Source: Prevotella sp.
Lineage (GTDB): Bacteria; Bacteroidota; Bacteroidia; Bacteroidales; Bacteroidaceae
Reading direction: 5' to 3'
NCBI GenBank assembly: GCA_017960525.1
Contig: JAGCZA010000084.1
Span: 1-64,000, forward strand
Length of the DNA stretch: 64,000 bases
The translations under genes and the position numbers were made by a program. The notes under the pieces were generated by a model. That model saw nothing but the letters and a program-made list of their open reading frames with translations, was not told where the DNA came from and made no database searches. Positions 7,954 through 50,756 of the stretch are shown piece by piece (position 1 is the stretch's first letter; the number at the start of each line of letters is the position of its first letter).

Positions 7954-8038
7954 TTTGGACGAATCTAACTGGTAGTTTGGACGAACCAAACTCCCAGTTT
8001 GGTTCGTCCAAACTTTAGGATTGGTTCGTCCAAAATTC
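7954..8038. repeat. 22-bp-period array of the TTTGGTTCGTCCAAACT repeat
   Basis: Four units start at 7954, 7976, 7998 and 8020, exactly 22 bp apart. The first two read TTTGGACGAA, the last two TTTGGTTCGTCCAAA (the fourth with one change at its first base). Each full unit is a small inverted repeat, TTTGG-5-CCAAA. The same sequence recurs at 39945-39962 and 50684-50756. It fills the gap before the aminopeptidase P gene. Confidence 0.9.
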
Positions 8039-27352: not shown

Positions 27353-28210
27353 TTAATCCGGCAGGAATTTATCGAACAGTGACAGGAGAGGACCATCTGC
27401 AGAACGTTTCCCGTCACTTAACTTGCTGACAATGAAGGCAATCTTGGTTGCTATGAAAGGATGCAGCTTCCCGATTTCAGCTTCCAGCACTTTCTCGTCG
27501 TCAGTACCGTAATAGACTGGTGCGAACACCTTCCAGTGAGCCTTCAGCGTGTCCACATCCAAGTGGAAGATTTTGTCGGCCCGCTCCGCACTCAGAAAGT
27601 TCGATGAATAGTACATCATGCCAAGATCCCACTCTGGAACGCCGTAGGCAAAGTCGCCCACGTCAATCCAGAGATTACGGCTCCCGTCGGTGATGATATT
27701 GCCGATGTGCAGGTCACCATGCAGACAGGTCGGCGAGGAGGATACGGTGCTCAGGAAACGGTGGAAACGCTCCTTATACGTGTCTGGGAGGTTCACGAGG
27801 CGGTCAATCCATATACCCACCAGTTCCCGCATGTCAGGCAACCGCTTCGTGTCGGCAGGGGTCTGGTGTATCTGCTTGGCGAGCACGGCGAAGCGCTCCG
27901 AGAGCGGAACCAGCTGGTCGGGTTCCTGCGAGATGATGCGGGTGAACGAGCGTTTGGGGCTGATCAGTTCATACTCTGCTCCAAAGCGTGTGCCATCGGT
28001 AATCAGGCGGATGGGCTTCGGCGTGGGCAGACCTATCTCGTAGACAATCTGGTTGATGCGGAACTCCCTGACAGCTGTATCGGCAGCAAGGCTGGGCATA
28101 AAGAGCTTGGCCAGCGTCTTACCGTCTTTATGGTTGTAGGTGAGCGCCGTTCCGCCCTCACCTGTCTGGATATAGTCATTCAGGTTGATTCTCTGCACTT
28201 CTTCGTTCAT
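27353..28210 (-). CDS. Aminoglycoside phosphotransferase-like (APH) kinase
   Basis: 285 residues from ATG 28210. ATP-binding residues (TLAKLF Lys; YELI hinge), the catalytic loop LHGDLHIGNII and the metal-binding LWIDVGDF are all present, as in the APH/choline-kinase fold. The pattern around WDLGMMYYS matches the APH half of the STAS-APH fusion at 38586-39782 (LDLGHAYSAM). So it is more likely part of the same signalling system than an antibiotic-resistance gene. It has its own -7 promoter box (28235-28242) and a 22-bp repeat array upstream. The protein or small-molecule substrate is unknown. Confidence 0.8.
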   Translation of the reverse strand: MNEEVQRINLNDYIQTGEGGTALTYNHKDGKTLAKLFMPSLAADTAVREFRINQIVYEIGLPTPKPIRLITDGTRFGAEYELISPKRSFTRIISQEPDQLVPLSERFAVLAKQIHQTPADTKRLPDMRELVGIWIDRLVNLPDTYKERFHRFLSTVSSSPTCLHGDLHIGNIITDGSRNLWIDVGDFAYGVPEWDLGMMYYSSNFLSAERADKIFHLDVDTLKAHWKVFAPVYYGTDDEKVLEAEIGKLHPFIATKIAFIVSKLSDGKRSADGPLLSLFDKFLPD

Positions 28211-28234
28211 AATTGCATACGTTAAATACGATTG

Positions 28235-28242
28235 CAAAGGTA
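28235..28242 (-). promoter_or_regulatory. -7 promoter box for the APH-like kinase gene
   Basis: TACCTTTG on the minus strand, 25 bp ahead of ATG 28210. No clean -33 TTTG is seen at the expected distance, so the promoter may depend on an activator. Confidence 0.55.
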
Positions 28243-28352
28243 CAACAATTTAAAAAAATAGAAAAATAAATAACGACAAATATTTTTTAACTTAATCATT
28301 CTGTTGAGAAGTATGTAGCCGAAATCTCAACCGCTGGTGTAAAAATTGGTTC

Positions 28353-28440
28353 GCAGCGGTCGCTGCAAAAGTTTGCGGCGGTCGCTGCAAATGTTTGTAG
28401 CGGTCGCTGCAAATGTTTTCCCCGCACGCTGCAAACCGAA
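28353..28440. repeat. Array of four 22-bp units (GCAGCGGTCGCTGC type)
   Basis: Units at 28353, 28375, 28397 and 28419, each exactly 22 bp. The first three read G[CT][AG]GCGGTCGCTGCAAA[AT]GTTT. The fourth is degenerate (CCGCACGCTGCAAA). Each core is an inverted repeat, GCAGCG-GT-CGCTGC. It lies in the gene-free stretch 28211-28577, which otherwise holds only the promoter above. Two helical turns per unit suggests sites on one face of the DNA. Confidence 0.9.
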
Positions 28441-28577
28441 GCGATACGGGTTTCCCCACAGACGAATCAATCGTTAATCCGACGGAATACCGAGGTGCTG
28501 AACGGCAAAGTTCGCCCTGCATCAGCACGCCGTAGTTCATTAATCATTGAAAGATGAGAGTTGAGGTTTTGCGGGCA

Positions 28578-28883
28578 TTATTCCTTGAACTCGAACAGGT
28601 TAATGAAGCCTGTCATGGCAAAGACGGACTTCAAATCGCCGTTCAGTCCTTTCACAAAAACCTTGCTGCCCTTGGGCTTGGCATTTTTGAGTATGGTGAG
28701 GAACAGTCGTAGGCCACTGGAGGATATATACTCCAAATGGGTGCAGTCAAGGATGATGTCCTGACAGGTGCAGTCGTTCAGTGGTTCCAAGTCTTTGGCG
28801 GTTTGTACACTTGCAGCTGTGTCAAGCCGGCCTTGAAAGATGGCGACGAGTGCGCCGCTCTTCTCTTCAATCGTAGTTTTCAT
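28578..28883 (-). CDS. STAS-domain anti-sigma factor antagonist (RsbV-like)
   Basis: 101 residues, a complete single STAS domain: GRLDTAASVQ, DIILDCTHLEYISSSGLRL (the phospho-acceptor Ser lies in the SSS) and FVKGLNGDLKSVFAMTGF. In partner switching, the unphosphorylated form binds the RsbW kinase and frees its client. The kinase gene starts 13 bp upstream in the same direction. The STAS domain at the start of the protein encoded at 38586-39782 has the same YISSSGLR motif. Confidence 0.95.
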   Translation of the reverse strand: MKTTIEEKSGALVAIFQGRLDTAASVQTAKDLEPLNDCTCQDIILDCTHLEYISSSGLRLFLTILKNAKPKGSKVFVKGLNGDLKSVFAMTGFINLFEFKE

Positions 28884-28896
28884 TGTTGTTGGGTTT

Positions 28897-29307
28897 TTAT
28901 TTGAGTTTCTTATTTAGTGTCAAGATATTTTTTCCACCGGTGCGCCGGTAGTTGACAGAGTCCATAATCTGACGAACCAGATGGATGCCGAGACCGCCAA
29001 TAGGGCGCTCCTCGACACTAAGGGTGGTGTCGGCTTCTTGCTGTGCAGTCGGGTCGAATGGAATGCCGCTGTCTCTGATGACAAACTGGAGCTGATGTTT
29101 GCGGAGTTGTGCCTGGATGGTGATGTCAGCTACGGTATCGTGTGGATAGGCATAGTTGATGACATTGACTACGGCCTCTTCAATGGCGAGGTTGAGCTTG
29201 AGGGTTGTTGCCATATCGAGTGCTGCGGCCTGGCACACCTCATCGACAAAAGGTGCGAGTCTGGTGACCTGCTGCACATCGTTCTGGAGTATCAATTCAT
29301 AATTCAT
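28897..29307 (-). CDS. RsbW-like serine kinase / ATP-binding anti-sigma-type regulator
   Basis: 136 residues. N box LNLAIEEAVVNVINYAYP (about 38-55), G1 box RDSGIPFDP and G2 box GGLGIHLV make a HATPase_c_2 domain of the RsbW/SpoIIAB type. Such proteins phosphorylate their STAS antagonist, here most likely the neighbour at 28578. No sigma factor gene is visible in the whole window, so the client may be encoded elsewhere or may not be a sigma factor. It is followed by a receptor and kinases in one minus-strand series. Confidence 0.95.
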   Translation of the reverse strand: MNYELILQNDVQQVTRLAPFVDEVCQAAALDMATTLKLNLAIEEAVVNVINYAYPHDTVADITIQAQLRKHQLQFVIRDSGIPFDPTAQQEADTTLSVEERPIGGLGIHLVRQIMDSVNYRRTGGKNILTLNKKLK

Positions 29308-29341
29308 AGAGGAGTGAAGAGGGAGTGAAAGTGGCCATAAT

Positions 29342-31819
29342 TTATAATTGTATGCCTATACTGGCTATGAACCAGCGGCCCTGTTGCGGTATGAGGTTGG
29401 TGTTCATACCACTACGGTAATAGTGTGTTCCGAACAGATTGTGAATATCAAGTCCTAAAGTGACAGGTGCTATTGCGTATTGTGCTCCGATATTGAGAAT
29501 GGCTCGAGGGGGCATGTCTTTCTGAAGCGTGATATGGCGCATAGCCTCAATAGCCTGCTGGCCGTAGGCTGTTGCCTGTTGGATGTCGCCCTGCTGATAA
29601 TATTGTACAGCTGCGTTAGTGTTGTTTGAGGCCTGTATAAGCTTGACGAGGTCTGTGTTGTAGGTTGTCTGTCGACTTTCGAAGAGCAGATGTCCGTGGA
29701 GTCGTAGCCGTTTGTTGGTCTGCCATCCTACTACAAGGTTGGAGCGCAGTGCGGGCGTGTTGTTGTTGTCATCGATGTCGGGGGAGTAGTATTCCTTGAG
29801 TTCGTTGGGCAGTTCGAGTCCCATAAGGTTTGACTTGAAGGTTTTTGTCCAAGTGAGGTTGAAGTTAAAGGAAAGCGTGGGTGACGGTTGATATGTAGCC
29901 ATAAGTTCGAGTCCGCAAGTCTGGTTCTTACTGACGTTCTCGTAGTCGATGATATGGGTCATGATAAGGTCGGTGGCACGGTTGTAGAAGGCGTTCACCT
30001 CAAAGTTGAGAGCGCGCACCCAGTTGGTTCCTGCAAAGGAGAGTTGTAGGGAGTGGACGCGCTCTGGGGACAAGATGCCTGCCTGACTGGCATCGAGGCC
30101 TTCCATCAGGGTAGACAGGAGGTTGGCCTTTCGGTAGATGTAGGGTGCGTCGACGAAGGACTTGGAGTAGCTGAGCCGGAGGCTCCACTTGGGACGGAGG
30201 AGGATGAGTGCCAATCGTGGCGAGAACTCATTGACCTGGGAGTCATCGTAACGGTCTTTGTAGTCGTAACGCAGTCCGGCATTGGTTATAAATGACAAGT
30301 GATACGAGAACAGTGACAAGTCCCACTGGTGCTTGAGCTGTAGATAGACATTGCCGCTGTTCTCGCTGTCCTTGCCGGCATTGCGCAGCACGGGGTCTTC
30401 AAAGAAAGTCTGCTCGAAGTCATATCCTATCTGGTAGCGTATGTCGTCGAGTTGGAAGTGTCCATACTCTGCACCGAATCCGATGTTGCCTTTATGGTCA
30501 TCGCCTAAAGAGTAGCTGTAGTTGCCTTTGAACTGTGCGCCATAGTCCTGTTCCTGCCCGTTAACATAGCGGGAGATGCCTCCATAGTGTGTAAACACGG
30601 TAGAGATGTCTTCAGGCAGTCCGATGGCCATGCCCAAGGTGGGCATGGGATAGTCGTTGATGGCCTGATAGCGTGTCAGGTCCGACTTGTCGTAGGTGAC
30701 GCTAATTTTAGTTGAGAGTTTGGAATTGGGAGTTGGGAGTTGATAGCTCAGGTTTGCATGGCGTGAGGCTGTGCTGAATCCGGGCTTCAGCCCGTTGTAG
30801 GTGCGGTAGCGGTCGTAGTCGTAGCTCAGTGCCAGCGATGTCATGGAGAATGGTGCGGCGACCTGTGAGAAATGTGTGTCATAGAGGAATTGCAGCCCTT
30901 TCCAGGCTAGCTGTAGTCCGAAGTCGTAGGTGGGTCGGTCTCCGATGTGTCCGATTCGTACCTCATCGAGAGGCATACTATAAGGACTCTCTCCGATGCG
31001 TTCATCAACCACATTGCGCCTTTCACCGCTACTGCGATAGATACTGCCCCAAAGGAGCAAGTCGAGGTCGAAATAGCGTTTGCCGAAAAGGGCGTCGGCC
31101 CTGATCTGTCCGTAGTTGCCAGCCCCTGCCCTGACCTGGAGGCCGTCGACGTCGGCCCCTTGTTTGGTGATGATGTTGACCACGGCAGTCAGGGCCACAC
31201 CGCCATAGAGCGATGATGCCGGGCCTCGCAACACCTCTATCTGCCTGACCTTCTCAAGCGAAATGCTGAAGTCGGGGGCTGCTGTATTGGTGACTTGGCT
31301 GTTCAGGCGGTGGCCGTTGAGCATGATGAGAATCTTCTCTTGAGTATTGCTGTAAATGCCACGCATAGCGATGTTGATGTCGTCGTCGCAGTCGATGAGG
31401 TTCATACCTGGCACGTAGGCTGCCAGCACCTCCTGCAGGTTGCGTCCGCCACAGTCGCGTATCATTTGCTCAGTAATGAGTGTTGTGGGCACAGGCACCT
31501 CGGCCAGGCTCTCAGCCTGACTGGAGGCGGTAGTAATGGTGGCAGTCATACCAGCCTTTATGTCGTTCACCATATCGGCAAAGGCTGGTGGGTCGCTGGA
31601 CGACGGCGTGTAGTAAGGATTCTCCTGAAGCATCTGTGTGGCATACTGTTGGGTGTGTTCCATATCGAAACGGGCCAGATAACTGAGGGCGATGAGACGG
31701 AGCGCATTCTGTCGCTGGTTGCCGTAAAAATTGCCAAGGTCGTGCAACAGCGTGTCACGTGCCTGTTCGATGCGTCCGATGCGATAGTCGCTCTCAGCTT
31801 GTGCGATCACCTCGCGCAT
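29342..31819 (-). CDS. TonB-dependent receptor, separated from its signal peptide by a frameshift
   Basis: 825 codons from the first in-frame ATG at 31819, but this start has no signal peptide. The N-terminal 75 residues or so form TPR-like helices. Then a plug follows (PVPTTLITEQMIRDCG, LIMLNGHRLNS, VLRGPASSLYGGVALTAV), then a barrel ending near IASIGIQL. Upstream, 31820-31917 encodes a good signal peptide that is out of frame by one base, next to a 7-bp repeat (see that entry). A short insert near 30714-30745 (LPTPNSKLS) comes from a TTGGGAG heptamer repeat. The receptor lies inside a regulatory operon, so it may sense rather than only import. The ligand is unknown. Confidence 0.85.
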   Translation of the reverse strand: MREVIAQAESDYRIGRIEQARDTLLHDLGNFYGNQRQNALRLIALSYLARFDMEHTQQYATQMLQENPYYTPSSSDPPAFADMVNDIKAGMTATITTASSQAESLAEVPVPTTLITEQMIRDCGGRNLQEVLAAYVPGMNLIDCDDDINIAMRGIYSNTQEKILIMLNGHRLNSQVTNTAAPDFSISLEKVRQIEVLRGPASSLYGGVALTAVVNIITKQGADVDGLQVRAGAGNYGQIRADALFGKRYFDLDLLLWGSIYRSSGERRNVVDERIGESPYSMPLDEVRIGHIGDRPTYDFGLQLAWKGLQFLYDTHFSQVAAPFSMTSLALSYDYDRYRTYNGLKPGFSTASRHANLSYQLPTPNSKLSTKISVTYDKSDLTRYQAINDYPMPTLGMAIGLPEDISTVFTHYGGISRYVNGQEQDYGAQFKGNYSYSLGDDHKGNIGFGAEYGHFQLDDIRYQIGYDFEQTFFEDPVLRNAGKDSENSGNVYLQLKHQWDLSLFSYHLSFITNAGLRYDYKDRYDDSQVNEFSPRLALILLRPKWSLRLSYSKSFVDAPYIYRKANLLSTLMEGLDASQAGILSPERVHSLQLSFAGTNWVRALNFEVNAFYNRATDLIMTHIIDYENVSKNQTCGLELMATYQPSPTLSFNFNLTWTKTFKSNLMGLELPNELKEYYSPDIDDNNNTPALRSNLVVGWQTNKRLRLHGHLLFESRQTTYNTDLVKLIQASNNTNAAVQYYQQGDIQQATAYGQQAIEAMRHITLQKDMPPRAILNIGAQYAIAPVTLGLDIHNLFGTHYYRSGMNTNLIPQQGRWFIASIGIQL

Positions 31820-31917
31820 ACGCGTCTCGCCTTGCGCCCCTGCGGGGATAAATGATAAATGATAGGGTTATTACCATCATCCATCGGCTGTGCAACAATT
31901 GTTTGATTATCTTCATT
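31820..31917 (-). other. Out-of-frame signal peptide of the TonB receptor; 7-bp repeat switch
   Basis: On the minus strand, ATG at 31917 opens MKIIKQ followed by the hydrophobic MMVITLSF. The next bases hold two copies of TCATTTA (about 31851-31866). With two copies the frame runs on as IIYPRRG and misses the receptor. With one copy it would read SFIPAGAQGETRM and join the receptor exactly, with a good signal-peptidase site at AGAQ. A single sequencing error here cannot be excluded. Confidence 0.8.
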
Positions 31918-31953
31918 GCCTTTTCCCGTTAATTGTCATTTATCATTCCTCAT

Positions 31954-32844
31954 TTAGGCCGAAGGCCGCACGACGGGTATTGTGAAGGTGAATGTAGTTC
32001 CCTTGCCCAAGGTCGAGGTGAACGTCACCTTGCCGCCATGTTTGTTTTCGATGATTTCGCGTGTGATGCCCATCCCAAGCCCTGTGCCCTGTCCGATGGG
32101 CTTGGTGGTGAAGAAGTTTTCAAACAGGTGCTGTTTCACCTCATCGGTCATACCCTCGCCATTGTCGGCTATGCTAATGACGAGTTGGTTGTCTGCGGAA
32201 AGAGCGACGCTGATATTGATTTCAGGCGAGTAGCCTTCAGGGGCAGCTTGTGACATACGCCAAACGGCATAGAAGGCGTTGTTCGTCACGTTCAGCACGG
32301 CCCGGCTCAGGTCTTGCGGAATAACCATCACGGGTGGCATCCCCTCCTGATACGTTTCGTGCAGGGTGACATTGAACCCCTGATGACTAGCTCGCATGGC
32401 ATGGTACGACAGGCGCACATACTCCCTCACAATACGGCATACGTCAGATGGTATACGCTCATTCTCCTTGCCTCGCGAAATGAGCAGAATGCTCTGAATG
32501 ATGCTCACGGCGCGCTCGCTGTTCTCCACAATCTGCTGCATGTTCTCCTTCAGGCTGTCCACAATGTCGGTGAGGTCTTCGCGGTCAGTATCGGAAAACA
32601 GTTTAGCATTGTCTTCCACAATGGCTGTCAGGTCGCTCAGGAGCCGTTCTGACATCTTCGAGAAGTTGATGACAAAGTTCAGGGGGTTCTGTATCTCGTG
32701 GGCAATGCCGGCACTAAGCATTCCGAGCGATGCCAACTTCTCTTGTTGCTGTAACTGCTGCTTTAATTGGCCAATCTCCAAGCCCCCTAAGTTAGGAGGT
32801 TGGGGGTCTGAACGACCTACATTAGTTGCTTTATTATTTTCCAT
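31954..32844 (-). CDS. Soluble histidine kinase
   Basis: 296 residues, no membrane segment. After about 40 residues with a coiled coil (QLKQQLQQQEKL), the H box is GIAHEIQNPLNFVINF (His near 50), a typical HisKA. The HATPase has N box NVTNNAFYAV, G1 IADNGEGM, F box FFTTKP and G2 GTGLGMGI. It is a full kinase without its own sensor, and probably works with the His-less receptor encoded just upstream, whose helical dimer region is similar. The N-terminal segment DPQPPNLGGLE is encoded by a C/G-rich palindromic repeat. Confidence 0.95.
   Translation of the reverse strand: MENNKATNVGRSDPQPPNLGGLEIGQLKQQLQQQEKLASLGMLSAGIAHEIQNPLNFVINFSKMSERLLSDLTAIVEDNAKLFSDTDREDLTDIVDSLKENMQQIVENSERAVSIIQSILLISRGKENERIPSDVCRIVREYVRLSYHAMRASHQGFNVTLHETYQEGMPPVMVIPQDLSRAVLNVTNNAFYAVWRMSQAAPEGYSPEINISVALSADNQLVISIADNGEGMTDEVKQHLFENFFTTKPIGQGTGLGMGITREIIENKHGGKVTFTSTLGKGTTFTFTIPVVRPSA
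32779..32813. repeat. Palindromic repeat inside the histidine kinase gene (inverted partner at 32876-32912)
   Basis: AGCCCCCTAAGTTAGG and GGGGGTCTGAAC recur in inverse orientation 63 bp away, just upstream of the kinase start. About 31 of 35 positions match by eye. The pair can fold into a long hairpin over the start codon of the kinase gene. Confidence 0.85.
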
Positions 32845-32875
32845 AACTCTATTTTAATAATTAGTTTTGAGCCTT

Positions 32876-32912
32876 GTTCAGACCCCCATCGCCCTAACTT
32901 AGGGGGCTAAGG
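32876..32912. repeat. Inverted partner of the palindromic repeat
   Basis: GTTCAGACCCCC...CTAACTTAGGGGGCT, the reverse complement of the element at 32779-32813. It spans the gap between the two kinase genes and touches the last codons of the upstream one. Confidence 0.85.
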
Positions 32913-35597
32913 AGAAAACGTAATGGTAAACTCTGTATATTCGTCCTTAACGGACTGCACACTGATGTCTCCGCCGTGGTTCTGTATAATCTCACGGCTT
33001 AGGTACAGGCCTACGCCTGCCGCCTCGTCGGTGGTCTTGGTAGTGAAGAAAGGATCGAATATCTTGCTGAGAATCTTTTCTTCGATGCCGATGCCGTTGT
33101 CGCGGATTTTCAGTATATACTTTCCTTCATTCACGGTGGCTGTAAGAGAAACTTCTGGGGTGAATTGCTGTTTCCGCGCCTTCTTCACCACAGCATAGAC
33201 AGCATTGCCCAACAGGCTCATCATCGTCTTGCTGAGCAGGTCGGGATTGCCATGCAGCGGCATCGCACTGTCGGTGAGTGTGAATGTCGTGCGGATATGA
33301 TACTGCTCTATTTCCTTGGCGAAGTAGTTGGCAATCATTTCCTTGTCCTGTCGGAGTACTGGCAGCAAGTCCATATCAACATAGCCTCCCGTGCGGTCTT
33401 TCAGCATCTCTTCCATAGCCTTCAGCGTGCGGGTGGTGTTCTGGCCATACTGGTCTACGTTCTGCAGATTCTCAGTCAGCATGTCCAGCACGTCCAAGGT
33501 GTCCTCATAGTCGTCGGCATTGAAGCTGTCCTTATTGTTGTCAATATTCTCCTTGAGGTCTTTCAGCAGGTCGTTAGACATCTTCGAGAAGTTGATGATA
33601 TAGTTCATCGGGTTCAGGATGCGGTCGATGAGTCCCTCCGTCAGCTTACCCACCGTAGCCATCTTCTCTTGGCGAATCAGCTCATGCTGGGCATTGCGAA
33701 GGTCGGCGGTACGCTCCTCAACGATGTGTTCCAGCTTGATTTTGTCTTTCTGAAGCCGCTTCAGACGATAGCGGAAGAGCTGCCAGACGATGTAGGCAAG
33801 GATGATGATGTAGAGCACCATCATATACCAGCGTATGAAGAGCGGATAGGCGATGCTAAAATCAATGGAGGCTACGTCAGAGAGTTCACCGTTGGCCAGT
33901 TGGGCCTGCACACTAAGGGTGAACGAGCCATACGGCAGGTTCAGGAACTCTACATCCTGCTTCTCTGTCCATGCGCTCCACTGACTGCTGTTAAGTCGGT
34001 ATCGGTACAGCGTCTTTCCTGAGAGTGGCGCAAAGTCGAGGGCATAGAAGAAATGCAGATGGCCCTCGTCGCTGCCCAACTTTGGCAACTCTTTGGGCAT
34101 TGTGCCATAGCCGCCCCAAAGCACACTGTCGCTGCCCATTGTGATGCAGCGGAAACGCAATGTGCGGCAGTCGGAAAGTTTGGCGAGCTGCTTCTTGTCG
34201 GTATCAACGATGGCAATCACCTCATCGCCACCTATCCACAATTGGTCACCATGTTGGTATTGTGCCGTTATCTCAATGTCACTTAGGGGTTTCAGCAGAT
34301 TATCCATATCGAGATGCTCCCCTTTAGGGGTCGGGGGCCGCTCTCCTACGGTCTTACCGTGAACGTTCTGCAGGAAGAGACCGCCCTTGGCATCCTTCCA
34401 AATGTCTGTTACCAACTGCAAGTCACTGACTCTCGTCCGCTGCCGAGGACTGCCAATTCCCTCGAACTGATAGAGCCACACGCCGTCAGGCTCTCCTGCA
34501 TACACCTTGTCGCCATCTACCAGCAGGGCTGTAGTGGCATTGGCAGTAAGCCGGCTGATGCTACCGCCTGGAGCTACTCTGTAGATGCCGCTGGAGGTCG
34601 CAGCGAGCAAATAGCCTCCACTGTGGCACAGCGTCCAACAGATGTTGTTGATGTCGGGAATGTGCTGGAGCTTTCGTGCGCTGACGCTGTAGAGGCCGTT
34701 GGTGCTGCCTACGTAGATTTTCCCGTCGAAGGCAGTGATGGCATGAACCTCGCCAGCAAGTCCGTCCTTAGCCAAGAGGTAGCTATAGACCGACGGCATT
34801 TCAACGGCAAAGAGTCCGTGAATCGTGGCTCCCCATAGCACACCATGACCGTCGTAAGCGACGTAGGCCACCTGATTGGAGCAAAGGCCGTTGGCCTCAG
34901 TAATCGTATAGAGTTCGCGCCCTTGGTCGTCACAAATAATCAGACCGCCGTTCTTCTTCACCTTCACCTGAAGGCCACCGTCTATCTGCTCTGTTTGGGT
35001 AATACCTTCCAGAAAGGTGATTTCGCTATTGGCTTTCAGAGCGTCTACCGACAAAACATCCGGCTCTACTCCAGGCTGGAGATCAGCATTCGTTCTCTTT
35101 TCCATCGCTATACTATCCCCGCCTACCACCTTATATATATTATTATCGCTGGCCACGAACTGTAATGTCCCGTCGTCCTCAAAGATTTCCGCCACCTCGC
35201 CTTCGAACAAGCCCTGCCCTATCGGCTGCATAAACAGTTCGCCGTTGGCACGGCACTCGAGACGGGCAAAAAAGTTAAAGCCTCCCACCCAGACTGTGTT
35301 CTTGCTGTCACGATATACCACGGTGACACGACTAATGTCGGGGGTGTAAAGTATGCGCCACTGTGAACGGTCGTAGTAGAGCAGTCCTTCGAAATTGGCA
35401 ACAAACACGGAACCGTCCTCGCCCGTCTCAATGTCGTATGAACGGTTATGTCCGCCATATTCCGCCGCAGTATAGTTACGGATATGGGGAATACCCTGCG
35501 CCCTTACGGGGCAAATGAGAAATGAGAAATGAGAAATGAGAAATGCTGCGCACAGCATCACCCTCCGTAACCATCCGATTGTTGTTCTTTCTGTCAT
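32907..35597 (-). CDS. Propeller sensor with degenerate histidine kinase (His replaced)
   Basis: 896 residues. A signal peptide (core FLISHFSFLI, itself heptamer-derived) is followed by a periplasmic region of two-component regulator propeller blades (about 40-490), a Y_Y_Y domain (about 500-590), one membrane helix (about 600) and a HisKA-HATPase module. The H box reads GLIDRILNPMNYIINF where the sister kinase has GIAHEIQNPLNFVINF, so the phospho-accepting His is Asp (codon GAC). HATPase boxes (LLGNAVYAV, IRDNGIGI, FFTTKT, GVGLYL) remain. It is probably a pseudokinase receptor that acts on the neighbouring kinase. The segment GERPPTPKGEHLD is repeat-derived. Confidence 0.9.
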   Translation of the reverse strand: MTERTTIGWLRRVMLCAAFLISHFSFLICPVRAQGIPHIRNYTAAEYGGHNRSYDIETGEDGSVFVANFEGLLYYDRSQWRILYTPDISRVTVVYRDSKNTVWVGGFNFFARLECRANGELFMQPIGQGLFEGEVAEIFEDDGTLQFVASDNNIYKVVGGDSIAMEKRTNADLQPGVEPDVLSVDALKANSEITFLEGITQTEQIDGGLQVKVKKNGGLIICDDQGRELYTITEANGLCSNQVAYVAYDGHGVLWGATIHGLFAVEMPSVYSYLLAKDGLAGEVHAITAFDGKIYVGSTNGLYSVSARKLQHIPDINNICWTLCHSGGYLLAATSSGIYRVAPGGSISRLTANATTALLVDGDKVYAGEPDGVWLYQFEGIGSPRQRTRVSDLQLVTDIWKDAKGGLFLQNVHGKTVGERPPTPKGEHLDMDNLLKPLSDIEITAQYQHGDQLWIGGDEVIAIVDTDKKQLAKLSDCRTLRFRCITMGSDSVLWGGYGTMPKELPKLGSDEGHLHFFYALDFAPLSGKTLYRYRLNSSQWSAWTEKQDVEFLNLPYGSFTLSVQAQLANGELSDVASIDFSIAYPLFIRWYMMVLYIIILAYIVWQLFRYRLKRLQKDKIKLEHIVEERTADLRNAQHELIRQEKMATVGKLTEGLIDRILNPMNYIINFSKMSNDLLKDLKENIDNNKDSFNADDYEDTLDVLDMLTENLQNVDQYGQNTTRTLKAMEEMLKDRTGGYVDMDLLPVLRQDKEMIANYFAKEIEQYHIRTTFTLTDSAMPLHGNPDLLSKTMMSLLGNAVYAVVKKARKQQFTPEVSLTATVNEGKYILKIRDNGIGIEEKILSKIFDPFFTTKTTDEAAGVGLYLSREIIQNHGGDISVQSVKDEYTEFTITFSP

Positions 35598-35627
35598 AGC
35601 GGTAGCAAAGGCTTAATTCATAATTTC

Positions 35628-37223
35628 TCACTTCTCATTTCTCATTTTCTTATACGGTATTCCCTTTCCCACGTAGTAGTTCCATTCCTCCTGCGTGAAA
35701 TCGCGCTTCACGTTCTGGCGCAGACGCTGGGCAATCTTAGGTAGTGAGATAAGATACTCTGTGACAGTGCCGTTTTGCTCGCCCGTCCAGATGTAGTTCT
35801 TGTCGGTGCTGAAGATGAAGTCGGTGAGCCAGCTGCCCGACTGGAACAGCGTGATGGGCTTTATCTGCTGGTCGTCAGTCATCCAGAACAGTAGTTTGCC
35901 ATCATAGCTGGATGAATAGAGCCGTTTGCCGTCAAACTTCAATTTCGTCACCTGTGAGAGGTGCCCTACGAGCTTACGTATCTTGCCGCTGTCGTCTGTC
36001 AGCCAGATGATGCCATCGTACATGCCGTAGGCTGCCAGATGCTCGTTCTTGCTGCTGGCAAAGGCTGTGACTTGTCCTTCCACTCCCGTTCTCTCGTCAG
36101 TCATGTCGTCGAGGCTGTTCACCAGGTGCATGCCGCCACGATTGTCGAAGAGCAGGGGCTTGTAGTCACGTCTGCCACTATAGATGATGCGGAATGGCAG
36201 ACGGCGCGTACCAATGATTCTGTCGGTGGCTGTGTCGAGAAGCGCCACGCTGTTCTCACCGATGATGAGCAGTTGCCCGCCATCGTTCATACCTTGCAGA
36301 CTAAATGGTTTGTCAACGTTCTCAACAGATATGACCCGTGATGAAAAGTCATTCGTTGAATGTGTCGTCCTGTTTCCATCGATGATGACCAAGTGGCCGG
36401 TATTGCTGATGGCATAGCCTTTACCGTTCTTAGCGGCGAACACATCGCGGAAACAGTATTGCCTATCTCTCATCAGACGGTTAGTGGAAATCTGGTCGCC
36501 TTGCATCGTATGGGCAAATACCTCCCCGTAGGTGCTCACAGTCAGCAGTTCGCCACTACCCGGAAGAATGTCGATGCGGGAGATGCTGCCGTTATGACTG
36601 CTCCAGCTGCGGCGGCTGCCTGCCGACTGTGTCAGGGCCTGGAAAACCGACGGGGTGTAGAGGTCGCCGCCGTAGTCGCTGGTGTAGAGATAGGAAGCGT
36701 AGGCCAGCATATTGCCCATCTCCTTGTCACCTGTCTGGTAGATGGAATAAGACTGCGAGCCGAGGGTGCGCCCCAGTGAGATATAGTTCAGCGTGTCGGC
36801 CACCAACTTGGCATATTCGGCTTGCTGGCGCTGACGGTCGGCCTCGCTACGCTGGCGCTCGGCCATCTGATAGGCAGTCATAGCCTCAGTAGCCGAGCTT
36901 TCTGCTATTCCCCGAGCTTCGATAGCCTTCTGCCGCTCTGCCTCTGACAGGAGCCTCATCTCCTTGGCAATCTCCGACTGGCGGATAGCTTCCTGGCTGC
37001 GCTCCTCAGAGAGAGCCTGCTGGCCGTAGGCAATCTCTTCCATCTGTTTGCTCACACGACGGTCCACCGCCGACCGCTGCTCCTGTTCGCGCAACAAATT
37101 TAGCTGCGCCTCCAACTCACTAATGCGCTCACGGTCGCCAAGATAAGAATAAAGCCCTACTGCCACCGATGACAGTAGCAGACCTCCCAATACCACTATG
37201 ATGGCCTTTTGTTTATCCATCAA
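35628..37223 (-). CDS. Membrane-anchored coiled-coil WD40-like protein
   Basis: 531 residues. One N-terminal membrane helix (about 6-27), a long charged coiled coil (about 33-140, rich in ER, EA and RQ), then a WD40-type propeller (about 190-500; GHLSQVTKLKFDG and YDGKLLFWMTDD are the clearest blades). A short C-terminal tail ends KMRNEK. The coil-propeller arrangement resembles scaffold parts of signalling proteins with WD40 repeats. No enzyme motif is seen. It lies between the kinase genes and the RsbU-like phosphatase gene, so it may link sensor to phosphatase. Confidence 0.85.
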   Translation of the reverse strand: MMDKQKAIIVVLGGLLLSSVAVGLYSYLGDRERISELEAQLNLLREQEQRSAVDRRVSKQMEEIAYGQQALSEERSQEAIRQSEIAKEMRLLSEAERQKAIEARGIAESSATEAMTAYQMAERQRSEADRQRQQAEYAKLVADTLNYISLGRTLGSQSYSIYQTGDKEMGNMLAYASYLYTSDYGGDLYTPSVFQALTQSAGSRRSWSSHNGSISRIDILPGSGELLTVSTYGEVFAHTMQGDQISTNRLMRDRQYCFRDVFAAKNGKGYAISNTGHLVIIDGNRTTHSTNDFSSRVISVENVDKPFSLQGMNDGGQLLIIGENSVALLDTATDRIIGTRRLPFRIIYSGRRDYKPLLFDNRGGMHLVNSLDDMTDERTGVEGQVTAFASSKNEHLAAYGMYDGIIWLTDDSGKIRKLVGHLSQVTKLKFDGKRLYSSSYDGKLLFWMTDDQQIKPITLFQSGSWLTDFIFSTDKNYIWTGEQNGTVTEYLISLPKIAQRLRQNVKRDFTQEEWNYYVGKGIPYKKMRNEK

Positions 37224-37251
37224 TCATTTGCCATTTATGTCGAAAGCCGCA

Positions 37252-38418
37252 TTACAGCCTCTTGACCACTAACATCGTTATATCATCGCTCTGTTCAGCA
37301 TTGCCCACAAAGTCCCTGATGCCAGTCTTGACGGCTTCAATAATCTGCTGGCAGGAAGCATCGGCCTGCTGGCGAAGGATATTGTCCAGGCGGTCAGGGC
37401 CGAACTCCTGGAATGCAGCATCTGTGGCTTCAGTCACGCCATCGGTAAACATCACCAGCGTGTCGCCCTGTTCCAGTTGAATGGTGGCCTCCTGGTATTC
37501 CAAATTGTCAAACACTCCTGCAATGGTGTTCTCTGACAAGGGCAGTTCGCTGATGGTGCCGTCTTTCCGTAACAGGTGTGGTGGATTGTGGCCGGCATTG
37601 CAGTAACTGACAAGGCCAGTCTTGATGTCGTAGATAGCGTAGAACACGGTGACGAACATATTGTCCACCGAATAGGCAGCCAAGAGGCGGTTCGACTCTG
37701 TCATACACTCTGCGGAACTGAGGCCTTGCGCTCCCTTCGAGCGGATAATGGTGCGACTGACGGCCATGAACAGTGCGGCAGGGATGCCCTTGCCGCAGAC
37801 ATCGGCTATCACAAGGGCGATGTGGCTGTCGTCGATACGGAAAAAGTCGTAGAAGTCGCCGCCGATGTCCTTGGCTGCCTCCATCAAGGCATAGATGTCC
37901 ACCTTGTCGCTGTCTTCTGGGAATGGCGGGAACACACGCGGCAGGATATACTGCTGGATGTCGCGGGCCGTGGTCAGGTCGTTCTTCAGCGACTCCAACT
38001 GGGCATGCTCCTTCTGTGACTCATGCACAAAGTTGATTTGGGCGATGGCCTTCTCGATTGTCAGGCTCAGGTCGTCCATATCGATGGGTTTCGTGGCGAA
38101 GTCGAAGGCACCGTTGTTCATTGCCTCGCGTATGTTCTTCATATCGCCGTAGGCACTCACCATAATGACGCGCAGCGCGGGGTTGCGCATCTCGTTCACC
38201 TTGGCCAACAGGGTGAGACCATCCATCTCGGGCATATTGATGTCAGAGAGAATAATCTCAATGTCTGGGTTGTTATACAGAATGGAAAGGGCCTCCAAGC
38301 CGTTGTGGGCGAAAAAGAACTCATACTCGCCATTACGGATCTTGCGCCTGAAGTACTGTCTCATCAGCAACTCCAAGGGGGCCTCGTCGTCAACACTCAA
38401 AATCTTTATTGCTGCCAT
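37252..38418 (-). CDS. Response regulator fused to PP2C phosphatase (RsbU/SpoIIE type)
   Basis: 388 residues from ATG 38418 (ATG 38442 is also possible). The REC domain (about 1-125) has the VDDE acidic pair, the phospho-accepting Asp in LSDINMPEMDG, and the SAYG and KPID ends. A short coil leads to a PP2C/SpoIIE domain (about 175-388) with GGDFYDFF, DVCGKGIPAALF, TDGVTEATD and QSDDITML metal ligands. It should dephosphorylate STAS proteins when its REC domain is phosphorylated, so it joins the kinases to the STAS/RsbW switch in the same series. Confidence 0.95.
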   Translation of the reverse strand: MAAIKILSVDDEAPLELLMRQYFRRKIRNGEYEFFFAHNGLEALSILYNNPDIEIILSDINMPEMDGLTLLAKVNEMRNPALRVIMVSAYGDMKNIREAMNNGAFDFATKPIDMDDLSLTIEKAIAQINFVHESQKEHAQLESLKNDLTTARDIQQYILPRVFPPFPEDSDKVDIYALMEAAKDIGGDFYDFFRIDDSHIALVIADVCGKGIPAALFMAVSRTIIRSKGAQGLSSAECMTESNRLLAAYSVDNMFVTVFYAIYDIKTGLVSYCNAGHNPPHLLRKDGTISELPLSENTIAGVFDNLEYQEATIQLEQGDTLVMFTDGVTEATDAAFQEFGPDRLDNILRQQADASCQQIIEAVKTGIRDFVGNAEQSDDITMLVVKRL

Positions 38419-38517
38419 ATACTCAAATTCTTTATTTACCACGAATTACACGAATTGCTGCACACAACATTTGGCTGCAAAAGTTTATCGCTGTTGTTTT
38501 GCAGATTCTTGCATCAG

Positions 38518-38585
38518 TAGTGAAATTAGCGTAATTAGCGGTCATCAAGTTATTAGTGAAATTAGTGTAATTAGCGGTTGTCAAA
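38518..38585. repeat. Two 36-bp units built from 9-bp repeats
   Basis: TAGTGAAATTAGCGTAATTA occurs twice, 36 bp apart, each with internal AATTAGCGT-type nonamers. It fills most of the gap between the phosphatase gene and the STAS-APH gene stop (38586). The rest of the gap (38419-38517) shows no gene. Confidence 0.85.
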
Positions 38586-39782
38586 TCAATCTACAGTCCA
38601 TTCGCTGAAGGTCTTGCAGACGTCAAGGATATAGTCCTGGCGGTTTCCGATGCGTTCGGCAAAAAGATTTTTGCACTCATTGACCACGGCTTCGGGGAAG
38701 GAGTCTGACAGGGCCAGCCAGCTGAAATTGCGCACACACGATACCACCTCTATCTGTGCCTTACGTCGTTTGGCCACATCGGAAGGCAGCCCCTCTAAAT
38801 AGTAGTCAATGGCACGCCTCCACGTTGACAGGCCCAATTCGCGTGGCATACCGATAATCTTGTCGTAGTCGCCCACTAAGGTCACCATCGCCGAATAGGC
38901 ATGGCCCAGGTCGAGCATCGGGTGCCCGTAGCCCACCTCACCCATGTCTATCAGCATCAGTTCCCCTTCCTGCACCATCGCGTTTTTCGTCTGCAAGTCG
39001 AGGTGCAGCAAACGGTTGGCATTGGGAATGGCGTCGACGATGCGCAACATCAGATCGATGCTCTCCTGTGGGAAGTAGCGGCGTATGTGGAGAATCTGCT
39101 GCCGCTCGCGCTCGATGGCACAGGGCACGCTGCTCCCACTGGGAACCTCGATGGCATGCAACTGACGAAACAGGTCGGCGAATTTTTTCGCGAACTCGTC
39201 TATGCGCCCGGGCTCGCGCTTGATGCAGGCACTCAGCGTGTCGGCCTGTAGCAGTTCGTAGACCAGGCCATACTGGCTGCCCACACGCACCACATCAAAA
39301 GAGATGGCGGTGGGCATACCCAGGACAAAAGCTTCCTTTGACATGGTAATCTCTCGGCGCACCTCGTCGATGGTTGTGCCCTCGCGAAACACTTTGATGA
39401 TGGTGTCACCGTTCAGGCGGTAGACGGTGCCGACACCGCCCACTCCGATGATTTCGCAGCCATCCACAGTGAACTGCCGCAGAGCGCGTTCCACGTTCAT
39501 AATCTTTGTAAAACCCGTAGTGTCCAGCACATCATAGACCACGGGCTGTACCTCTACTATGCGAAAATCCTTATAGCGCTTGGCCAGTCCGAGCAATATG
39601 CGCAGGCCCGAACTCGAAATATAGTCCAGCTGCATAGCATCGCATGTTAGTCGGGAAATACCAGTTGCGCCAGCCAGAGCACGCTCGATATCGGCACTGG
39701 CCTGGGCTGATGTGGCAGTGTCAAGTCGTCCCGCAAGTATCAGCGTTGCATTGTCATTCTCTTTCCTGATGTCGATATTCAT
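38586..39782 (-). CDS. STAS domain fused to an APH-like kinase
   Basis: 398 residues. Residues 1-105 are a STAS domain (GRLDTATSAQASADI, LDYISSSGLRILLGL), then a linker and an APH-type kinase (about 110-390): GTVYRLNGDTIIKVF (ATP lysine), VYELLQAD hinge, LHLDLQTKNAM catalytic loop with Asp, and LMLIDMGEVGYGHP metal Asp. The catalytic loop lacks the usual HGD and reads HLD. The fusion of an RsbV-like antagonist to a kinase is unusual and suggests that the STAS state is read by, or controls, the kinase. It is the first gene of the minus-strand series. Confidence 0.9.
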   Translation of the reverse strand: MNIDIRKENDNATLILAGRLDTATSAQASADIERALAGATGISRLTCDAMQLDYISSSGLRILLGLAKRYKDFRIVEVQPVVYDVLDTTGFTKIMNVERALRQFTVDGCEIIGVGGVGTVYRLNGDTIIKVFREGTTIDEVRREITMSKEAFVLGMPTAISFDVVRVGSQYGLVYELLQADTLSACIKREPGRIDEFAKKFADLFRQLHAIEVPSGSSVPCAIERERQQILHIRRYFPQESIDLMLRIVDAIPNANRLLHLDLQTKNAMVQEGELMLIDMGEVGYGHPMLDLGHAYSAMVTLVGDYDKIIGMPRELGLSTWRRAIDYYLEGLPSDVAKRRKAQIEVVSCVRNFSWLALSDSFPEAVVNECKNLFAERIGNRQDYILDVCKTFSEWTVD

Positions 39783-50683: not shown

Positions 50684-50756
50684 TTTGGTTCGTCCAAACT
50701 ATGACTTTGGTTCGTCCAAACTCCTACTTTGGTTCGTCCAAACTCCCAGTTAGATG
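50684..50756. repeat. 22-bp-period array of TTTGGTTCGTCCAAACT (third locus)
   Basis: Three direct copies at 50684, 50706 and 50728, exactly 22 bp apart, followed by CCCAGTTAGAT, which is also the inverted flank of the array at 7954 (ATCTAACTGG). It lies between the divergent etfB and tamB promoters. Nothing else is seen in 50565-50794. Confidence 0.92.

Follow-up and report, generated by a model that had tools for sequence, protein, structure and literature searches.

In the opa genes of Neisseria, CTCTT pentamers lie within the signal-peptide coding region and their copy number switches expression ON and OFF (PMC3899988, from the portion of the text available), and heptanucleotide repeats such as TAACTGA occur near start codons in Beggiatoaceae, Cyanobacteria, and some Bacteroidetes (PMC4679880, likewise in part). 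The locus described here is the start of a TonB-dependent receptor gene within 64,000 nucleotides of a Prevotella sp. contig (JAGCZA010000084.1, positions 1 to 64,000; hereafter, the window). As far as the opa account goes, the two are alike in that a short tandem repeat whose unit is not a multiple of three lies in the signal peptide of a surface protein, where its copy number sets the frame; here, however, the unit is a heptamer, present in about four copies and nearly always in frame in our sample, the repeat is one of a dispersed family whose members can also have hairpins and a complementary arm upstream, and no switching was seen. With the TAACTGA-type sets, as set out in the available part of PMC4679880, our arrays share direct heptamer repeats, many of them just before start codons, but those sets have one dominant unit and are mostly intergenic, whereas here there are many units, and T-rich arrays encode the cores of signal peptides. 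The abundance of heptamers and their occurrence near start codons are already in print (PMC4679880, same portion). No description of heptamer-built signal peptides in Prevotella was found among titles and abstracts of the open-access literature (including PMC8040213, on structured RNAs of human microbiomes), and the accessible text of a 2025 review of phase variation (PMC11868660) mentions neither Prevotella, heptanucleotides, nor signal peptides.

The receptor is encoded on the reverse strand (29342 to 31819) by an open reading frame (ORF) of 825 codons that has neither a start nor a signal peptide of its own. A Plug domain (Pfam, residues 105 to 211, E = 2.7e-15) is followed by about 600 residues, a barrel-sized region, although no barrel family scored above cut-off in searches with Pfam and receptor models. 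Siderophore, heme, and B12 receptor models match the ORF below their cut-offs (TIGR01785 covers residues 96 to 823), and among solved structures the best match is to the colicin I receptor (2hdf, E = 6.6e-14). The ORF contains no internal stop; upstream, its frame is open only as far as a TAA, and the 16 codons that precede it (PYHLSFIPAGAQGETR) include no ATG, GTG, or TTG, in agreement with the original prediction that the receptor frame lacks a signal peptide. A signal peptide with a normal n-region and hydrophobic core, MKIIKQLLHSRWMMVITLSFIIYP, can instead be read from an ATG at 31916 to 31914. Its frame and that of the receptor part at TATCATTTATCATTTATC (31864 to 31847), a heptamer array of 2.6 units (18 bp, delimited by a tandem repeat finder) within the hydrophobic core, in which the doubled TCATTTA occupies 31862 to 31849. 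The array thus sits inside the signal-peptide coding region with a unit that is not a multiple of three: because 7 equals 1 modulo 3, one, four, or seven units are in frame and two are out, and each one-unit step shifts the frame. Both the break at the doubled heptamer and this arithmetic had been predicted, and both hold.

We searched 120 genomes of the genus for the receptor and obtained matches at 52 places in 42 of them (this genome included). The 32 relatives examined comprise 29 of the 51 places outside the window plus three loci from metagenome assemblies (Prevotellaceae RUG11225, Prevotella RGIG5177 from sheep abomasum, and Bacteroidales RUG12436), the remaining 22 places falling outside the count. 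In every one of the 32, an ATG opens a signal peptide that is in frame with the homologous residues, which indicates that the signal-peptide reading in the window is not due to chance. (One of the 22 places outside the count, G033:C111, consists of two adjoining pieces, one of which contains a TAG.) The receptor ORF itself shows a pattern of substitution characteristic of purifying selection: its dN/dS relative to L039 is 0.10, as against 0.07 to 0.16 for pairs of in-frame relatives, values that are rough because dS is 1 or more. An ORF that is free of stops and has a dN/dS near 0.10 implies that the break is recent, reversible, or leaky.

The relatives also differ from the window in how the receptor gene begins. 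Directly upstream lies a histidine kinase gene (31954 to 32844, reverse strand; HisKA and HATPase_c). A kinase end was recognised in 24 relatives (and in the other 8 was not), and in 18 of the 24 the kinase stop codon and the receptor ATG overlap by 4 bases. In the window there is no such overlap, and the end of the kinase is encoded by a hairpin: the protein terminates in RPSA, where many relatives have IKK or similar. Repeat-built signal peptides, all in frame, occur in other relatives of the receptor, with heptamers in L012, L022, L025, L026, and L039 and a longer repeat in L010. That of L039 is nearly equal to the signal peptide of a second histidine kinase in the window (32907 to 35597, reverse strand; Y_Y_Y and Reg_prop), so that signal peptides seem to have been exchanged. 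In L010, the receptor signal peptide is built from a 36-bp repeat, present twice, that includes the palindrome CCCCTCCTTTGGAGGGG, another dispersed-looking palindrome within an export signal.

Heptamer arrays are abundant in this genome. In 367 kb, we counted 75 exact arrays of period 7, versus 18 in order-1 random sequence, whereas period 8 is at the random level (7 versus 7); period 6 is also raised (228 versus 68). Among imperfect arrays scoring at least 10 in 1.08 Mb, there are 112 of period 7, compared to 17, 17, and 26 of periods 6, 8, and 9, respectively, as well as 75 of period 14, a multiple of 7. The pattern (TCATTTN)x4 was found in 40 of 150 genomes of the genus (reversed control, 3 of 150) and, across the phylum, in 2 of 198 genomes, this genome being one of them (control, 5 of 198). 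Within the genome, TCATTTATCATTTA recurs at seven places: the window, four in-frame signal peptides, and two sites just before start codons (assigned by eye). On these sequence comparisons, the window array is a member of a family that is concentrated in the genus and in which about four TCATTT-type heptamers form part of the signal peptides of unrelated exported proteins.

The array in the window is short for this family. Of 59 TCATTT-type arrays, 52 have 3.9 to 4.7 units, three have 3.1 to 3.6, three have 5.0 to 5.3, and the window has 2.6, in a set that was partly fetched by a four-unit pattern and is to that extent biased towards four. A search anchored on the cassette tail, and requiring only one unit, yielded nine places in 7 of the 150 genus genomes. 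Besides the window, these comprise an intergenic array and seven signal peptides, each of them in frame and of four-unit length. L206 carries the window's own tail variant, but with four units. Given that the compared family has about four units, the window copy probably lacks two units instead of having one in excess, and judged by array lengths and tails, a two-unit loss from four is more likely than a one-unit gain. The original prediction, which held that there is one unit too many, therefore stands as regards the frame break but probably not as regards its direction. Gain of one unit as the sole reading is set back by the array lengths and by the tail search, which is independent of count; a single unit is not detectable as an array, such that a one-unit ancestor could escape these searches.

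Members of the family are almost always in frame. We sampled 1.86 Mb from this genome, G032, and G149; the window was given, and the stretches of this genome in C36, C65, C80, C96, and C131 were picked for holding TCATTTATCATTTA (L099 was left out, as it overlaps L057). In this genome, G032, and G149, respectively, 44, 7, and 11 rows were in frame, and the hydrophobic filter retained 19, 3, and 6 of them as in-frame signal-peptide arrays; 44, 6, and 28 rows were not in frame, with an ATG in another frame in 6, 1, and 4. Only one of these last 11 rows, that of the window, was judged by eye to be a signal peptide. Once the ten other rows are set aside by eye, the sample thus holds 29 signal-peptide arrays, 28 of them in frame, the lone exception being the window's (P = 9e-13 under random frames): among these members copy number is not freely variable, and OFF states are uncommon. 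Some rows are less clear-cut, in that L064:18789 and L059:10488 are in-frame genes outside the hydrophobic filter, the G149 row MLADRVRL is doubtful, and L070:1171 is ambiguous, being covered by an antisense ORF roughly as long. No long ORF follows C19:14323 (L213), which was therefore rejected as a second broken gene; L059:10488 was likewise rejected as a startless gene, since a GTG in its upstream array can start it in frame. In the latter region (L059:10488 to 10623), the likely GTG start is formed by an upstream AGTGA-type heptamer array, and a TTCACTA-type array lies in the signal peptide.

Across the genus, 89 loci, mostly fetched by the four-unit pattern and hence biased to at least four units, gave 156 rows, 62 of which were ON, and in 50 of these an in-frame signal peptide has HLSF or HFSF as its core; 67 of the 94 rows that were not ON fell outside inspection owing to an output filter. 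In three pairs of genes matched by eye between genomes (L113/L188, L076/L173, and L112/L170), about four units are kept, which, along with the 28 of 29 arrays in frame, is unlike the behavior of freely switching contingency loci.

More surprising than the frame break is the hairpin-capped cassette in which it lies. The window holds all four pieces of this cassette, read along the reverse strand: a GC hairpin, GGCCTTCGGCC (31967 to 31957), which encodes the last residues of the kinase; an A-rich heptamer arm, AAATGAGGAATGATAAATGACAAT (31955 to 31932), at whose outer end that hairpin sits and which is complementary to the signal-peptide array; the array itself (31864 to 31847); and, at the outer end of the array, a second GC hairpin, CCCCGCAGGGG (31847 to 31837), which codes for P-A-G in the receptor frame and whose tail recurs in seven other signal peptides. 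The upstream arm and the array form an inverted repeat of 12 nt at 100% identity with 73 nt between, or of 16 nt at 88% with 76 nt between. The second kinase is built similarly, its signal peptide containing an in-frame CTCATTT array (35513 to 35545) with a complementary arm at 35616 to 35647 (32 nt, 88%).

Among 72 distinct genes with signal-peptide arrays (28 sampled, 43 fetched by pattern, and the window), a reverse-complement match to the array, at least 12 nt long, lies in the 18 to 165 bases before it in 24, compared to 1, 0, and 1 for direct, reversed, and complement controls. A complementary upstream arm is common but not general, as it is absent from 48 of the 72. The arms are spaced 49 to 86 bases apart in 17 of the 24 genes (range, 29 to 152). 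When hairpins were scored in the 26 genes with an arm match of at least 10 nt, a GC hairpin was present at the outer end of the upstream arm in 10 and at that of the signal-peptide array in 12, as against 12 of 390 control windows; cleavage-site codons may explain part of the excess at the signal-peptide array. These hairpins vary in sequence. Predicted mRNA folds pair the arms in 22 of the 24 genes that have them, as expected of a set chosen for complementary arms, and the window belongs to the remaining two. Because its arms are unpaired in the predicted fold, an RNA switch there was rejected. In Prevotella bryantii, there is no functional Shine-Dalgarno pairing and the start is sensitive to structure (PMC3155529, in the sections available), and in Flavobacterium, initiation is tuned by structure and by an A at −3 (PMC6847099, likewise); by extension, an A-rich arm able to pair over the start could matter. 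Rfam gave no match at E ≤ 1 for positions 31700 to 32100 of the window.

Two other classes of element resemble the cassette. REP-like dispersed palindromes, which accompany RAYT (Y1_Tnp) transposases, are short GC palindromes arranged as inverted pairs that surround the ends of genes; the hairpins here have the same form and arrangement, but with heptamer arrays attached. Mobilization by a RAYT is unsupported: Y1_Tnp matches occur in 87 of 150 genus genomes, but this genome has a single partial match and G032, which has the most (TCATTTN)x4 hits of the genus genomes, has none. In intragenic invertons of gut Bacteroidales, in the accounts available to us, inverted repeats flank a coding segment. 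Here, too, such repeats (12 nt, perfect, 73 nt apart) flank the start segment, a likeness that lies in the repeats themselves.

We favor, with a probability of about 0.55, the reading that the receptor start belongs to a family of heptamer cassettes found dispersed in this genus and that its array, at 2.6 rather than the usual four or so units, has lost two units, leaving the receptor unexported save for leakage. Such a cassette would run, in order, from a GC hairpin through an A-rich heptamer array, a start codon with n-region, and a complementary T-rich array to, often, a second GC hairpin, with the T-rich array encoding the hydrophobic core and the terminal hairpin the cleavage region; about four units would satisfy both the frame (1 modulo 3) and a normal core length. 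The native start of the receptor was presumably replaced by the cassette, since the overlap with the kinase is lost and the kinase end is hairpin-coded, and the signal-peptide arm would then have lost two heptamers (14 bp), probably by slippage, perhaps aided by the inverted arms. Ribosomes starting at 31916 would leave the receptor frame, such that no exported receptor would be made apart from leak. A duplication of a single heptamer, converting a one-unit signal peptide into the present one, fits the arithmetic, and the resulting core, MMVITLSFI, would be short but hydrophobic; with the cassette tails found elsewhere at four-unit length in seven of seven signal peptides, we regard it as improbable. 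Slightly less credible still is an assembly or consensus error: the genome is a draft of 146 contigs, but the tract is only 18 bp, and arrays that are longer than this stand in frame in that draft.

A true contingency locus, in which slipped-strand mispairing alters the heptamer count at a useful rate and turns the receptor ON and OFF, is the strongest of these competitors, though we consider it unlikely. For it speak the unit that is not a multiple of three, its position in the signal peptide of a surface receptor, the intact ORF under apparent purifying selection, and the known analogue in the opa CTCTT repeats (PMC3899988, as available); yet the array has only 2.6 units, 28 of 29 sampled arrays are in frame, about four units persist in the three gene pairs matched by eye, and no second state of the locus was seen. 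Of the ON/OFF phase switch originally proposed, then, what survives is that copy number puts the receptor out of frame, and not that the switch works: the array looks more like a weak point open to mutation than an on/off switch that has been demonstrated, and the locus, if it switches, would work like a contingency locus. Purifying selection on the ORF would also suit a receptor made at low level. CCC-C sequences are prone to +1 slips, and one is present from 31847 onwards (TAT CCC C), where such a slip would enter the receptor frame and leave a usable signal peptide; but CCCC also occurs in the cassette tail of in-frame genes and need not be selected for slipping, which makes this the least probable explanation that we considered.

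Extending the favored reading of a cassette with two units lost, we tentatively suggest, at less than even odds, that in this genus dispersed, hairpin-capped, inverted heptamer elements act as portable gene starts that replace native starts, with the copy number of their arms tuning or abolishing translation and export, and that the window was caught in a broken state. Such an element would supply the A-rich initiation region and the start codon, together with the signal peptide's hydrophobic core and cleavage region, and its arms could pair across the start codon. If the family is as it looks, short tandem DNA repeats are the form in which these gut bacteria build and exchange their export signals; each signal would carry a built-in frameshift risk, and many secreted proteins could quickly lose and regain export. 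Gene callers will miss or shorten genes of this kind.

The receptor was also predicted to be sensory, a designation that rests on its context: two adjoining histidine kinases, in an order kept in L038, whose upstream ORFs match, by eye, the window's WD40-like gene and both kinases. More broadly, in the region from 27353 to 39782 the receptor lies among the two histidine kinases, a response regulator with a SpoIIE phosphatase domain, and STAS, STAS-APH, and RsbW-like genes, likely a partner-switching signalling cluster. Heptamer-like stretches also occur in frame inside the receptor ORF, at 30710 to 30742 (CCCAACT-type, SYQLPTPNSKLSTKISV), a two-residue insertion relative to seven relatives, and at 30284 to 30304 (TATCACTTGTCATTTATAA, encoding FSYHLSFI), where eight residues are absent from four of seven relatives and a similar stretch is present in three. 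A second class of repeat in the window consists of palindromic units (GTTTGCAGCGGTCGCTGCAAAT, TTTGGTTCGTCCAAACTCCGAC, and the like) arrayed with a period of 22 at 28349 to 28418, 7954 to 8034, and 50684 to 50746.
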